NCBI GenBank assembly: GCA_011524535.1
Contig: WTKD01000012.1
Coordinates: forward strand, 1 to 60,871
DNA length: 60,871 nt
Direction of reading: 5' to 3'
Origin: Spirochaetaceae bacterium
Lineage (GTDB): Bacteria; Spirochaetota; Spirochaetia; WTKD01
Positions 55,294 to 60,871 of this stretch are shown piece after piece. The notes under the pieces were generated by a model. The model ran no database searches and was not told the origin of the DNA. It worked only from the letters and a program-made list of their open reading frames with translations. Position 1 is the first letter of the stretch, and the number at the start of each line of letters is the position of its first letter. The translations under genes and the position numbers were made by a program.

Positions 55294-55641
55294 TTTTTCT
55301 GATACAGGTAGCGATCCGAAGCCCAATAGCCCTCATGAGTTCAAGGATGTGGTTTTCAGCAAGATGTTTCTTGAAGAATTTCGATATTCACGAACCCTCT
55401 GCATCATTTTCTAAAAAATAGTTCACCCTTTAGAAGTTTACCTGCAATCAGTAAATGCCCATAAATCTTCACATGTGACTTTTTTAAGTTCATTTTTCTA
55501 ATGAAACATCAAGTTATAGAACTTCTAAACATCATTTCGATTTTTGTGCAATAAGGTGTTGGAATGTTCAAAAAGGTGCTGGAATGTTCAAATATGGACA
55601 AGAATATATCTAAAAAGTAGTATAAGTAATATATCTCTATT
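55294..55641. other. 348-base intergenic region before large lipoprotein gene
   Basis: No intact gene is seen. One frame is open for about 40 codons with no start codon (ends with TAA near 55412). Further on are a perfectly phased 20-base tandem repeat (55553-55592) and an AT-rich stretch (GTATAAGTAATATA, 55619 onward) that may hold the promoter. There is no evident ribosome binding site before the ATG at 55642. Confidence 0.6.
55553..55592. repeat. Tandem 20-base direct repeat, two copies
   Basis: Two back-to-back copies of AAGGTGYTGGAATGTTCAAA (Y = T in copy 1, C in copy 2) differ at one base. They lie 50 bases before the large lipoprotein start. They could be tandem binding sites or a slippage-prone repeat altering promoter spacing. 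The role is unknown. Confidence 0.85.
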
Positions 55642-58600
55642 ATGAAAAATTCAATATTTACACTTACAGATGATGATAGAATATTCCATATTTTAATGAC
55701 TCTCACGGCATTTTTTGTTCTTGGATCTTGTGGAGATATGACCCTTACTACTGACATTTCACTAGAATTACAAGAAGAACAGCCGGTTACCGTTCGGTCG
55801 CTTAGTATAGATGAATTTCTAACCATGGAGGCAGACGGAGATAATAGGTATATTGCAACCACAACGGATTCGCCTAGTATTTTCGTACATGATCATGATT
55901 CAATTTCAATTCGGGAGGATGTTATATTGACAGCGGATATTATAGAGGATGAAGAAGCTATAGTTTCCGTTGCTGATATTGCGTACGATGATTTGCAAAA
56001 TACATATGTTGTTGAGTTTAAGGTAGGTGCTTCGGGGTACAAGAATCAAAGGATCACCGCATATGTTATCCGTGAAATGTTTTGGGTAGATGAGATACGC
56101 ATTGGAAATGATCTAATTACTCGAGAAGGAACTTTTCCCTATAGATTTCAATATTTTACAGATGCTGCATATTTCTCCCAGGGGAACAATGGAGACCCAA
56201 TATTTGATCGCAGTGTAAATGTTAGCGCCACGGTTCTACCGGAAGGGCTCGAAACCATAGCCGAAATAGATACATCTAGTCTTTCCTATGATGAAGCCTC
56301 TGGTCGATATTCATTCATTGTAGAAGTTTCTTCCAGGAACTATGAAACGTTACGAATAGAGGTAGAAGCCAGCAAATCCTCTATCCACGTTCTTGGTGTA
56401 AGTAGCGCAGACAAAAATGTTGTTTACAAAAACAATGGAATCAATTTTATTCATATTGCAGATGACATATCGGATTACGTAGCCACCCAAGGCTCGCAGT
56501 ATTATTGGGTTGCTGGTCGGTTTTCAATCATGAGCGATCCACCAGACGCCACCCATACCGTAGGAGCTGTGGAATATAATGAAGAAACAGATATGTACTC
56601 GGTTTTGGTCTCATTACGTTCTGGTTCAAAGGAGAGCACAATCGTGGTCCAGGTTACAGAAAAGAAGAACATGATTGTTAGTTCGCTATCCGTAGGAGGT
56701 GTTCCTTTTTTTGCTCATTCAGAGATTAATTCCGATAATTCCCTTTACGACTCCTACGAATACAAGGAAGAAGATTTGAGCTCGGTGATCTCCAGTACGA
56801 GGTCACCGAGACTCTTGTACCCCGTTGTAGTAACGGCAATAGATGAAGAAAGCACCACGATTATCGATGACCTAATTGTAAATTTCTCACCGGCGGTAAA
56901 TAATCTAGGGATATTTACTTTTACCATATCCATACGATCGAAGAATATTCGATATGCTCCAAAAATAATCAATGCAGAAATTATTAAAACACAAAGGATA
57001 GCTTATAAATACGATTCTCATCTTAGGCGGTATGATGATGTTTTTTCTATTGGCGATTTAGATAATGAGCGTTTGCTTATCGCGGATTCTGATCACCTTC
57101 AGGGCCTAACTCTCAAATACAGCATGTCTATTATGCTTGAAAATCAGGTGGTGTACTCTGTCATAAACGAAGAGAAAGACAGTCAAGAAGATGGGAGTTT
57201 CCACATAGGTCTTCCAGCTCTTTCTGATGAAGGATTCGCTCTTTCTCCGTCCAGCCCTTCCTTTGAATACGATGAATATCGAGCAGGTTCTCCGCTTACG
57301 ATAAGCATCAGCGATATAACCAACAGCAAGGGAGAAACGGTAATAGAGGGAAACGTTTTTGATCTTATTACCGGAGGAGATGGCTTTATATACACTTGGA
57401 GGGATTTGCAGAATATGCGTTTTGATCTCTCTGGAAATTATATATTACAGCACGATATTACCTTTCCTGAATACAACGAAGAAGGTTTTCCTGCCTATGG
57501 ATTTAGGCCAATTGGCGACTACATCGTTCTGTCTGGGCAAACAGGTTCGGATTATCAGTTGGAAAGAGCTTTTAGAGGATCTCTTGATGGAGCAAACAAG
57601 CGCATTATTGGATTCAAAATTTTATCCTCAAATGCAAGTCAAAGGAATTATCTTGGATTATTTGGGTTTGTTGATTTTAGTAATGCGACGCATTCAACGT
57701 TTCTTAGAAATATCACCTTTGTTGATCCTTACGTACAATTAACGGCTTCTGATCCAGAACCGAGACCCTCTTTTGTATCAGAGAATTCTTTTATTACAGT
57801 TCCCATGGTAAATAGTTATGTTGGGATCCTTGCTGGTGGAGTCATTGGAACACGAAGCATACATCATGGAAAAGAAGACAACGATATCGAAATAAGCAAT
57901 GTATACGTAACTACAAATAACAAAGATCGTAATATACAGACCCCCTTCGTGGAAATTATTCAGGATACATCGAGGACACATTCTGTTTCCTACGTAGGTG
58001 GATTGATTGGAGCGAGTGTAGGGGGAGTGAGTATACGCTTTGGGAGAGAGGATGTATTTCATACAAGAATAGCGATACAAGATGGAGATAGGGTTACTTC
58101 AGGCGGGGCTGTGGGAGGTGTTGTAGGATTTGCTGGGAGCACGAGAATTATTGCCGAAAAACCAACCGATGTAGAGGGTTATGTAGATCTCGTGGGGGGA
58201 TATGTAGATCCACAATCGAGCAGTTCTTTATCGGGGATAGGAGGCATAGTTGGGGAATTACATGCAGGAATGGGAGCTTCTTTCGTTGGGGCCAATGATA
58301 GTTCTACATTGATAGGTTCGGTATCTGTTTTTGGTGAGAGCGGAACAGGAGGGATGATTGGCACAGTGCATGCTGGTAATGGTCCAATCGAAGAGATAGA
58401 CCAAACAATGACCACTTCCATCCGCAATGTGGAACTAAGAGGCTCTACACATTCTAATTCTAGATTGAAAATAATCGGAGGGAAGTCTGTGGGTGGAATT
58501 CTTGGCGAAATCCATACAGTCCCTTGGCTAGCAATGGACAATTGGAAAATTAGTGGGCATGTGAGTATCGAAGGGAACGGTAATGTGGGAGGCTATATAG

Positions 58601-59565
58601 GTACATATACGTCTGTAGGTGGAAAAATAAATAGTATTCTTCATCGGAACACAGACACCATCGTTAGATCATTGTCCGCAGGAAATGTTGGAGGAGTGAT
58701 AGGTTATCTTTTGCATGATTCTGAAAATAGGACTCTGCTAGAGTCTTTACATTTTTCTGGACAGGTGTACTGTCAAACCGTTGATAGTCGTATTGGATCG
58801 GTTGGAGGTCTTATTGGAGGAAGTGATGTTTCAAAGAACGTTGATCATCCAGTTGACGATTTCTTGCTTACGCTACGTAATGTCTCGGTACACCATGAAA
58901 ATGCTGATGGTCCATTAAGCGATTCACAGAGAGGAGAAGCGTACATAGGCGGAGTGTATATGAATGCAGAAAACATTGAATCACAGCTCCACAAGGCGGG
59001 AGGATTTATTGGTGAGATTACTCACCCTGTTTTGATTGAAAATGCATTCATGCACGGGTATGTACATGGTTTATTCGCAGGAGGATTGGTTGGAAATCTT
59101 ATATCCTACGATGACGATAATAGGGAACCAAATACCAAATTTCGAAATATACGTGTTGCCGGGCAAATTATTGGCGGTAGCGTGGCGGGTGGGCTAATCG
59201 GTTTGAGTTCTGTACCAAATAACGCAGAAGTGACCATAGAGACCGAGAATATCGTTCTTGATTTGGGCAGGCATGGATTATTTCTGTTTGATGCAGGGAG
59301 AATAGGTCGGGCATCGTATGCGGGTGGAGGTGAATTTGTCTATAAGCACAATGGATTTTATATCAACCAAGAAATTTCAGGGTTTGACGTGGGTACAGAA
59401 AAAACAATAACACTAGCTCCAGAGAACAGACTCTCTGGTTCAAAGGCACTTAAAACAAGCAAGATTCCGATTTCTGATACTTTGTTCGATGGACCATGGA
59501 TAGAAACCGATAGATTTCCAGTTCTTAAGGCAAATTCGGGAGTACCGCACCCAGAACTTCAATAA
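55642..59565 (+). CDS. Large GLUG-repeat surface lipoprotein with Ig-like modules
   Basis: A 1307-residue predicted lipoprotein. The signal sequence ends LTAFFVLGSC, with Cys near residue 30. Residues about 50-540 hold roughly four modules of about 100 residues. Each has a Y-D/N-E-x-x-x-x-Y-S strand, a V-x-V strand and a closing I-x-V-x-x pair. From about residue 574, TWRDLQNMRFDLSGNYILQH opens a GLUG-type beta-helix-like region. It has twelve copies of x-G-G-h-h-G (such as VGGLIG, IGGIVG, AGGLVG) between about residues 725 and 1185. GLUG proteins are usually cell-surface or adhesive, which is inference here. The start is uncertain because no ribosome binding site is visible; ATG 55696 is an alternative. 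Confidence 0.85.
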   Translation: MKNSIFTLTDDDRIFHILMTLTAFFVLGSCGDMTLTTDISLELQEEQPVTVRSLSIDEFLTMEADGDNRYIATTTDSPSIFVHDHDSISIREDVILTADIIEDEEAIVSVADIAYDDLQNTYVVEFKVGASGYKNQRITAYVIREMFWVDEIRIGNDLITREGTFPYRFQYFTDAAYFSQGNNGDPIFDRSVNVSATVLPEGLETIAEIDTSSLSYDEASGRYSFIVEVSSRNYETLRIEVEASKSSIHVLGVSSADKNVVYKNNGINFIHIADDISDYVATQGSQYYWVAGRFSIMSDPPDATHTVGAVEYNEETDMYSVLVSLRSGSKESTIVVQVTEKKNMIVSSLSVGGVPFFAHSEINSDNSLYDSYEYKEEDLSSVISSTRSPRLLYPVVVTAIDEESTTIIDDLIVNFSPAVNNLGIFTFTISIRSKNIRYAPKIINAEIIKTQRIAYKYDSHLRRYDDVFSIGDLDNERLLIADSDHLQGLTLKYSMSIMLENQVVYSVINEEKDSQEDGSFHIGLPALSDEGFALSPSSPSFEYDEYRAGSPLTISISDITNSKGETVIEGNVFDLITGGDGFIYTWRDLQNMRFDLSGNYILQHDITFPEYNEEGFPAYGFRPIGDYIVLSGQTGSDYQLERAFRGSLDGANKRIIGFKILSSNASQRNYLGLFGFVDFSNATHSTFLRNITFVDPYVQLTASDPEPRPSFVSENSFITVPMVNSYVGILAGGVIGTRSIHHGKEDNDIEISNVYVTTNNKDRNIQTPFVEIIQDTSRTHSVSYVGGLIGASVGGVSIRFGREDVFHTRIAIQDGDRVTSGGAVGGVVGFAGSTRIIAEKPTDVEGYVDLVGGYVDPQSSSSLSGIGGIVGELHAGMGASFVGANDSSTLIGSVSVFGESGTGGMIGTVHAGNGPIEEIDQTMTTSIRNVELRGSTHSNSRLKIIGGKSVGGILGEIHTVPWLAMDNWKISGHVSIEGNGNVGGYIGTYTSVGGKINSILHRNTDTIVRSLSAGNVGGVIGYLLHDSENRTLLESLHFSGQVYCQTVDSRIGSVGGLIGGSDVSKNVDHPVDDFLLTLRNVSVHHENADGPLSDSQRGEAYIGGVYMNAENIESQLHKAGGFIGEITHPVLIENAFMHGYVHGLFAGGLVGNLISYDDDNREPNTKFRNIRVAGQIIGGSVAGGLIGLSSVPNNAEVTIETENIVLDLGRHGLFLFDAGRIGRASYAGGGEFVYKHNGFYINQEISGFDVGTEKTITLAPENRLSGSKALKTSKIPISDTLFDGPWIETDRFPVLKANSGVPHPELQ

Positions 59566-59619
59566 ACATCTACTTAATGAAGAAAATATCTAATAAGCAT
59601 AATAAAATATATAATTAAA

Positions 59620-59648
59620 TTGACATATATATTGCATAAATATACAAT
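59620..59648 (+). promoter_or_regulatory. Candidate promoter 1 of small lipoprotein gene
   Basis: TTGACA (59620-59625) and TACAAT (59643-59648) are separated by exactly 17 bases in AT-rich DNA. The -35 is perfect and the -10 differs at one base, making this one of the best sigma-70 matches in the window. Confidence 0.65.
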
Positions 59649-59652
59649 AATA

Positions 59653-59682
59653 TTGACATATTTGTGGTTTAGCCACTATGCA
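59653..59682 (+). promoter_or_regulatory. Candidate promoter 2 of small lipoprotein gene
   Basis: A second TTGACA (59653-59658) with TATGCA (59677-59682) at 18-base spacing. The near-palindrome GTGGT-tta-GCCAC (59665-59677) lies in its spacer and could be an operator. It would start transcription about 20 bases before the GTG start. Confidence 0.45.
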
Positions 59683-59708
59683 AATCTAATTTCAGTTAGG
59701 AGGTTGCT

Positions 59709-60251
59709 GTGAATACAATTACAAGAATAGGTGATCCAGCAAAATTTTTATTCGTGATATTATGTACAGTTTTTTTCTTTTCATGTGGAGCTACTAGTGC
59801 TGGCTCTGGGATCAGCGATGATTCATTGAACTCCGAAGAGCAAAATGATGAGCAACTGTTAAATGATGTGGAGCCTAATGACAATCAATCATTCTCTGTA
59901 AAATCCATGACTTTTGATTTGTCGTCAAATGATGACTTCGGTCCAGTAGAAGGAGAAATAGACGCAAACGATCCAAACAAGATCACGTTTACTCTTCCCT
60001 ATAACATCCTCACTTCGACAGGAAACTATTATGTCGACACAGATATTAGAAATATATTGTTCTCTTCGGCTTTTGTTGTTAATGATCCGGCTAACGCATC
60101 TCTGAAGGAACTTGTTCCAATTAACGGCAAAGAACTGTATACAACAACCGCGGCAATCGACGTGTTAGAGGTGATTGTAAGAATTAAACAAGGCACGAAT
60201 TATGTAGATATGCATGTTTATATAACTGAAGGGGAAAACACGCAAGATTAA
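59709..60251 (+). CDS. Small lipoprotein with one Ig-like (DUF5018-like) module
   Basis: A 180-residue predicted lipoprotein starting at GTG. TAGGAGG (59697-59703) lies five bases before it. The signal sequence ends TVFFFSCG, with Cys near residue 22, followed by an acidic Ser/Asn/Glu linker. Residues about 57-175 look like one Ig-like module: VKSMTFDLSSNDDFGPVEGE, then ITFTLPYNIL, LVPINGKELYTT and VRIKQGTNYVDMHVYI. The pattern (F-x-F, G-x-I, P, closing V-x-V) resembles DUF5018-type beta-sandwiches. It is similar to the next gene and to modules of the large protein before it. Function is unknown. Confidence 0.82.
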   Translation: MNTITRIGDPAKFLFVILCTVFFFSCGATSAGSGISDDSLNSEEQNDEQLLNDVEPNDNQSFSVKSMTFDLSSNDDFGPVEGEIDANDPNKITFTLPYNILTSTGNYYVDTDIRNILFSSAFVVNDPANASLKELVPINGKELYTTTAAIDVLEVIVRIKQGTNYVDMHVYITEGENTQD

Positions 60252-60284
60252 TTGCGGTCAGAAATAGGTGGAATAGATATAGAA

Positions 60285-60301
60285 ATATATGAGACATATA
60301 T
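60285..60301. repeat. AT-rich inverted repeat ATATATG/CATATAT
   Basis: A perfect 7-base inverted repeat with a 3-base AGA loop, 34 bases after the preceding stop codon. It is followed by GTTTTT 15 bases later. This is too AT-rich and too far from a U-run for a confident terminator. It may also be part of the promoter region of the next gene (TATAAT at 60323-60328). Confidence 0.35.
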
Positions 60302-60390
60302 CTGATATATATTAAGTTTTTCTATAATATAATATGTTACGTGCAAATTATATTAATAACAAATAAATTGATTTTTTAAAGGAGTACATA

Positions 60391-60871
60391 ATGAGAAATA
60401 TTATTACAGAAAAATATTCCATAGGTTATATAAACCTGTTGGTTTTACTAGCTATATCCATGGTTATTTTTGTTTCATGTGGTGGCATAAGTTTTGGCAC
60501 TAATAGCGTGGCTTCACCGAGCACCGATGAGCCAAGTGATACTAATGACACAAGTGATGTTGATAACACAAGTGATGTTGATAACACGAATGATGGGGGT
60601 TTGGTTCCTGGAACGCTTACGGTCTCATTCATAGGCTTTGATGTTAGAACTGACGACGAGATAGGACAGGTGTCGGGCACCCCTGTAGCTAATCAAAGCG
60701 TGCAAACCTACAGGTTTGACGGAAATATACCACCAATAAAAGATGATTTTGGTAACAATTATGTAGATGCACCTATAGAGACGATATTAGAAGGCTCTAA
60801 AGTAGAGGTTATTAGACCAGAAGGTATTACATTTGTAAAATACCTACCGGTCACTGGTAAAGAGAGATATA
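60391..60871 (+). CDS. Lipoprotein paralogue, 3' end outside window
   Basis: The frame is open from ATG 60391 to the window edge (160 residues). AAAGGAG lies six bases before the start. The signal sequence ends SMVIFVSCGG, with Cys near residue 30. A linker with TSDVDN repeats (residues about 54-65) follows, then VSFIGFDVRTDDEIGQVSG, FDGNIPP, NNYVDAPIETIL and YLPVTGKERY. These align in order with the protein at 59709 (MTFDLSSNDDFGPVEGE, NYYVDTDIRNIL, LVPINGKELY), so the two are paralogues. This gene is easy to miss because it runs off the end. Confidence 0.85.
   Translation, partial: MRNIITEKYSIGYINLLVLLAISMVIFVSCGGISFGTNSVASPSTDEPSDTNDTSDVDNTSDVDNTNDGGLVPGTLTVSFIGFDVRTDDEIGQVSGTPVANQSVQTYRFDGNIPPIKDDFGNNYVDAPIETILEGSKVEVIRPEGITFVKYLPVTGKERY
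60550..60585 (+). repeat. In-frame 18-base tandem repeat encoding TSDVDN
   Basis: Two identical copies of ACAAGTGATGTTGATAAC, followed by a degenerate third unit (ACGAATGAT), inside the linker after the lipidated Cys. Because 18 is a multiple of 3, copy-number change would lengthen or shorten the tether without a frameshift. Confidence 0.9.

Follow-up and report, generated by a model that had tools for sequence, protein, structure and literature searches.

In lipoprotein biogenesis, Sec-dependent export is followed by lipidation at the cysteine of the lipobox and by membrane anchoring. Lipoproteins of spirochaetes can be periplasmic, and the lipoprotein immunogens of Treponema pallidum are so described (PMC7521688). 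The gut archaeon Methanimicrococcus blatticola has acquired 15 membrane-bound GLUG proteins, for which a role in adhesion has been suggested (PMC9723798). Gene conversion of an expressed gene from promoterless 5'-truncated cassettes is the mode of antigenic variation known for VlsE and TprK (PMC2632889, PMC10063172).

The window analyzed here is an entire contig (C12, 60,871 nucleotides) of the 1.42 Mb draft genome of a Spirochaetaceae bacterium assembled in 14 contigs. Its last genes code for an orphan pair of small lipoproteins, of which a truncated third copy is found on another contig; the neighboring gene codes for a divergent lipoprotein of a repeat type already known, and the end of the contig is a modest, mostly ordinary expansion of surface genes. 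In the reading that we prefer, to which we assign a probability of about two in three, tandem small lipoproteins, orphan and probably lineage-specific, lie downstream of a divergent GLUG lipoprotein, all would be outward-facing proteins of binding or adhesion, and they would have arisen by duplication, truncation and segmental recombination.

Gene order and DNA features of the contig end

Three open reading frames, all on the forward strand and separated by intergenic gaps of 143 and 139 bp, close the contig (Table 1). A hydrophobic stretch precedes a lipobox in each predicted product (GSC in P0003, FSC in P0001 and VSC in P0002), a hydrophobic signal peptide followed by an N-terminal lipobox cysteine being the pattern expected of putative lipoproteins of the SPase II type. 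Three consecutive lipoprotein genes, and a window ending inside their cluster, had been described in a sequence-only reading, and both are found here, with the contig stopping within the second small gene. The same reading had given the genes individual promoters. One good match stands ahead of P0001, but promoter-like sites in the region total 19 against 18.9 expected by chance. The repeats that it mentioned are present as short tandem repeats upstream of the large gene and within P0002.

The relatives of the neighboring substrate-binding protein gene reach 59% identity at most, and none of their loci has the small genes; one locus from this neighborhood comparison (L105) matches the start domain of the GLUG proteins. 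The neighboring transporter protein has its best relatives in Spirochaetia metagenome-assembled genomes and in bacteria of the Geobacter type, none of them above 59% identity. None of the compared genomes is reported to be nearer to this genome than the same class.

Table 1. Positions of the features discussed, in the window unless another contig is named.
Feature	Position	Strand	Remarks
20-bp tandem repeat, upstream of large gene	55545-55592	+	2.4 copies
Large gene, P0003	55642-59565	+	1307 aa; signal peptide, lipobox Cys30
Four N-terminal modules of P0003, residues 47-455	55780-57006	+	motif [VIL]xY[DN][DE]xxxxY ahead of beta-hairpin in modules 1-3
GLUG-type domain of P0003 (approximate)	57364-59515	+	residues ~575-1290; start 'YTWRDLQNMRFDLSGNYILQHDITFP...GFRPIG'
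Promoter-like site before P0001	59620-59648	+	TTGACA-17-TACAAT; 11/12 match, best of region
Small gene, P0001	59709-60251	+	180 aa; GTG start, AGGAGG upstream; lipobox Cys26
Small gene, P0002, 5' part	60391-60870/60871	+	160 aa, open at contig end; lipobox Cys30
18-bp tandem repeat	60533-60595	+	codes for Asn/Thr/Ser/Asp linker of P0002
55 bp identical to the start of C5 (its first 55 bp, reverse-complemented)	60817-60871	+	de Bruijn overlap, repeat start
Tandem GLUG lipoprotein genes	C10:1-10741 and C5:148837-185544		loci L071, L069, L070

The large protein and the GLUG family of the genome

The C-terminal half of P0003 is a divergent member of the GLUG lipoprotein family of this genome. The GLUG domain claimed for it in the sequence-only reading is not recovered by Pfam alone, as a scan of P0003 gives no Glug match above the gathering score and the weak match at 58678-58767 scores 14.3 bits where the cut-off is 20.5, but the claim stands with a profile built from ten GLUG lipoproteins of the same genome, which matches 57388-58026 with an E value of 1.7e-13. 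A Pfam match to Botulinum_HA-17 (E 0.041, below the cut-off) was taken as chance. The nearest relative of P0003 is C3_178921, a lipoprotein of 565 aa that stands alone on C3; the two are 37% identical over residues 583-700 and are sisters in a tree, with support of 99/97. Identities to paralogues on C5 are 35% and 31%, and that to a paralogue on C10 is 26% (E 1e-6 to 1e-7).

Residues ~31-575 of P0003 form an orphan, beta-rich region in which modules of ~100 aa are weakly repeated. The in-register similarity between neighboring modules is marginal (15, 27 and 13 of 500 shuffles), and fold prediction of the modules gave a pLDDT of 34.6. No relative worth the name was found for this region among 394 other genomes of the same class, where one match covers 59 residues with an E value of 1e-3 in a frame with stops.

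Searching with the GLUG profile of this genome gives 45 stretches, in 22 frames that are 300 aa or longer, many of these with a lipobox, plus about ten fragments, several with stops. When Pfam Glug matches (E <= 0.01) are counted in 118 genomes of the same class, this genome has the most, 23, followed by 11 in the next, its small size notwithstanding. The tandem array on C10 is mosaic in that blocks of 100% identity, either 5' or 3' plus intergenic, stand beside blocks of 41-57% identity in the same gene pairs, a pattern by which segmental recombination among the surface-type genes of this genome is well supported as the probable process. Fragments of GLUG genes and stop-containing pieces lie between intact copies at C5:150152-157206, C5:181303-181680, C9:83648-84300 and C9:86627-86968.

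The small lipoproteins and their third copy

P0001 and P0002 are true paralogues, and their similarity extends beyond the signal peptide and the linker. The whole proteins match each other with a BLASTP E value of 8e-11 and with an E value of 1e-7 in a HMMER search of the genome, while the mature parts give an hhalign E value of 7e-7 and a Smith-Waterman z score of 12.9, with 0 of 500 shuffles scoring as high; the alignment of the two that had been noticed from the letters is thus one of homologous proteins. In P0001 an Asp/Asn/Ser-rich linker (~27-60) is followed by a beta-rich domain (61-176), and in P0002 the linker contains the 18-nt tandem repeats and the beta-domain is cut by the contig end. 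The residues behind the cysteine of the small proteins, rich in Asp, Asn, Ser and Thr, resemble a flexible tether. AlphaFold, run on an alignment of two sequences only, models P0001 as an all-beta domain after a signal helix with a pLDDT of 58.5, and a PDB fold search with this model returned nothing at E <= 0.001.

Neither small protein belongs to a Pfam or NCBIfam family at its cut-off. A two-row profile of the pair found no relative in 394 other genomes of the same class, none turned up when viral contigs and a genome collection were scanned, and in the genome itself the only members found are the pair and one fragment on C5. The proposal of an undescribed family agrees with this absence from the libraries and genomes searched, and the family is an orphan seen in one bacterium and probably lineage-specific. 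Several candidates were set aside. A PDB profile match to 4a42 (E 0.0026) is driven largely by the low-complexity linker. A match in the same genome at C2:233104 (E 3.5e-4) covers the signal peptide and linker region of a GLUG lipoprotein, with no match to the domain. DUF5018 (PF16410), a family of Ig-like lipoproteins of Bacteroides, has a strand pattern (S-F/M-x-F ... G-x-I ... Y-x-V-x-I) that is alike by eye only, and a search of the genome with the Pfam model gave no match at E <= 10. A 259-aa lipoprotein encoded just upstream of the truncated C5 copy (L003:539-1318, minus strand), with the opening FTVKSLTF compared with FSVKSMTF, has no significant similarity to P0001 (E 0.19) and was not counted as a member.

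The contig stops at 60871 because the final 55 bases are shared with one end of C5, where they lie in another copy of the small gene. An exact overlap of 55 bases is expected from a k=55 assembly graph at the start of a repeat, and convergence over exactly 55 bases occurs in four other pairs of contig ends of the assembly. No further contig of the assembly was found to carry this 55-mer, and a continuation past 60871 was not found there, so that the assembly does not show the additional copies suggested to follow. An insertion sequence is not favored as the repeat shared by the two ends, the shared 55 bp being coding sequence of the family. Shared repeats are also seen at C13, the end of C10 and the start of C2; the end of C10 codes for BspA-like leucine-rich repeats, and C13 for a lipoprotein containing an acidic segment rich in Pro and Gly. 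A serine-recombinase-like gene at C14:1-814, probably of an IS607-type element, lies close to sequence common to three contig ends (C14, C9 and C1), which is probably a repeated mobile element.

The homology of the C5 copy starts where it reads LETILADSPVEIVQPEGITFVKYLPVTGKERY and the window reads IETILEGSKVEVIRPEGITFVKYLPVTGKERY. There is a stop upstream of this start, and farther upstream no homology above that of shuffles was found in any frame, including frameshifted extension. Nucleotide identity to P0002 is 25/45 (~56%) and then 54/54, and the diverged 45 nt code for a homologous peptide, LETILADSPVEIVQ on C5 and IETILEGSKVEVIR in the window. The sequence fits a 5'-truncated third copy of the small gene, whose 3' part may have been recently exchanged or copied, and segmental recombination within the small family, based on this one junction, would fit as well.

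Since the copy lies at the end of a draft contig, a chimeric join or a strain mixture is possible, in which case the small family would be a two-gene tandem duplication and the fragment an artefact. The copy is indeed visible over only ~100 bp (99 bases), the last of its contig, and the draft assembly is one with k=55 overlaps. However, the 45 nt that precede the shared block code for a diverged homologous peptide, which a random join would not produce, and an artefact is unlikely. With the preferred reading of a truncated third copy, the expanding surface-antigen locus of the sequence-only reading holds as an expansion of surface-type lipoprotein genes throughout the genome, in the GLUG family, the C10 array and the C5 copy, whereas the surface location is presumed.

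Relation of the small and large proteins and comparison with known systems

The C-terminal strands of the small proteins had been likened to residues 50-540 of P0003, as if one module occurred once in each small protein and several times in a row in P0003. Neither the similarity nor the common module was borne out: the small proteins match this region of P0003 with BLASTP E values of 0.94 and 3.4, the hhalign probability against its modules is at most 1%, and z scores range from -1.2 to 1.3, like those of shuffles. A profile of the three best hairpins of P0003 recovers those three at more than 60 bits, and P0001 is not among its 25 best matches. The strand VRIKQGTNYVDMHVYI is found in P0001 only, because P0002 is cut off before the corresponding point. 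The likeness amounts to no more than a generic beta-hairpin. To class P0003 as a GLUG lipoprotein whose N-terminal region is orphan and beta-rich is preferable to grouping it with the small proteins.

A single Ig-like module that has diverged past the reach of sequence methods would be compatible with the beta-rich nature of all three lipoproteins, with the marginal similarity of neighboring P0003 modules and with the low-confidence models, in which a tight turn near the end of P0001 connects a pair of strands, each roughly ten residues long (152-161 and 164-174), and two P0003 modules have like strand pairs (192-201/204-213 and 288-297/300-309 in model numbering). Yet the similarity of the small proteins to any P0003 module does not rise above shuffles, models of such pLDDT are too poor for comparison and beta-hairpins are generic, so that a shared module is rather improbable, although the small domain and the P0003 modules may have a fold in common. 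Antigenic variation, in which an expressed small gene is converted from silent promoterless cassettes, is quite improbable, because, although the 5' part is missing from the C5 copy, the identity of this copy changes abruptly and the GLUG array of the same genome is mosaic, the only donor-like sequence found in the genome is this one truncated copy, the 3' end in common is one identical block rather than a variable segment, and the evidence sits at draft contig ends.

In the preferred reading of an orphan pair beside a GLUG lipoprotein, P0003 and the small proteins would share location and anchoring without a detectable common module. All three are predicted to be Sec-exported lipoproteins that carry their lipid on the cysteine of the lipobox and are anchored in a membrane. 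The small proteins would each present one beta-rich domain of ~110 aa on a flexible acidic linker, and in P0003 the beta-rich modules would form a stalk that bears the GLUG repeat domain, for which a beta-helix-like rod is expected. An outward-facing role in binding or adhesion is the most likely one for all three and is favored because of the lipoprotein anchoring, the tether-like linker, the rod expected of the GLUG domain and the adhesion suggested for the archaeal proteins; the periplasmic immunogens of T. pallidum count against assuming surface exposure. Both families, that of the small proteins and that of the GLUG proteins, would change by duplication, truncation and segmental recombination, with recombination as the presumed cause of the mosaics.

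It is doubtful, if conceivable, that an isolated lineage with a small genome, probably spirochaetal, diversifies its many GLUG lipoproteins and the unrelated small orphan lipoproteins by segmental recombination, with tandem genes and truncated copies as partners, as a new system of antigenic or adhesive variation. If so, a distant lineage would join the few in which the diversification of surface lipoproteins by recombination can be studied, and the basis of this diversification would be GLUG proteins, about whose function little is known. At present, the locus provides an orphan lipoprotein family of two genes and a fragment, and a concrete, sequenceable reason for the contig end.

The small family resembles VlsE and TprK (PMC2632889, PMC10063172) in having a full-length gene and a 5'-truncated partial copy with an abrupt change of identity, but no array of silent cassettes was found for it in the genome, and the likeness is one of layout only. 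Like GLUG motif proteins (PF07581), P0003 has spaced GGLIG-type repeats in its C-terminal half, which opens with a W-x-D-L...DI-x-F-P...PIG pattern common to other GLUG lipoproteins of the genome; unlike them, it has ~540 extra N-terminal residues and a single Pfam match below the cut-off. Many GLUG membrane proteins in one organism are also the condition of M. blatticola (PMC9723798), whereas here the organism is a bacterium, with ~22 long frames, many of them with a lipobox, and a tandem mosaic array.
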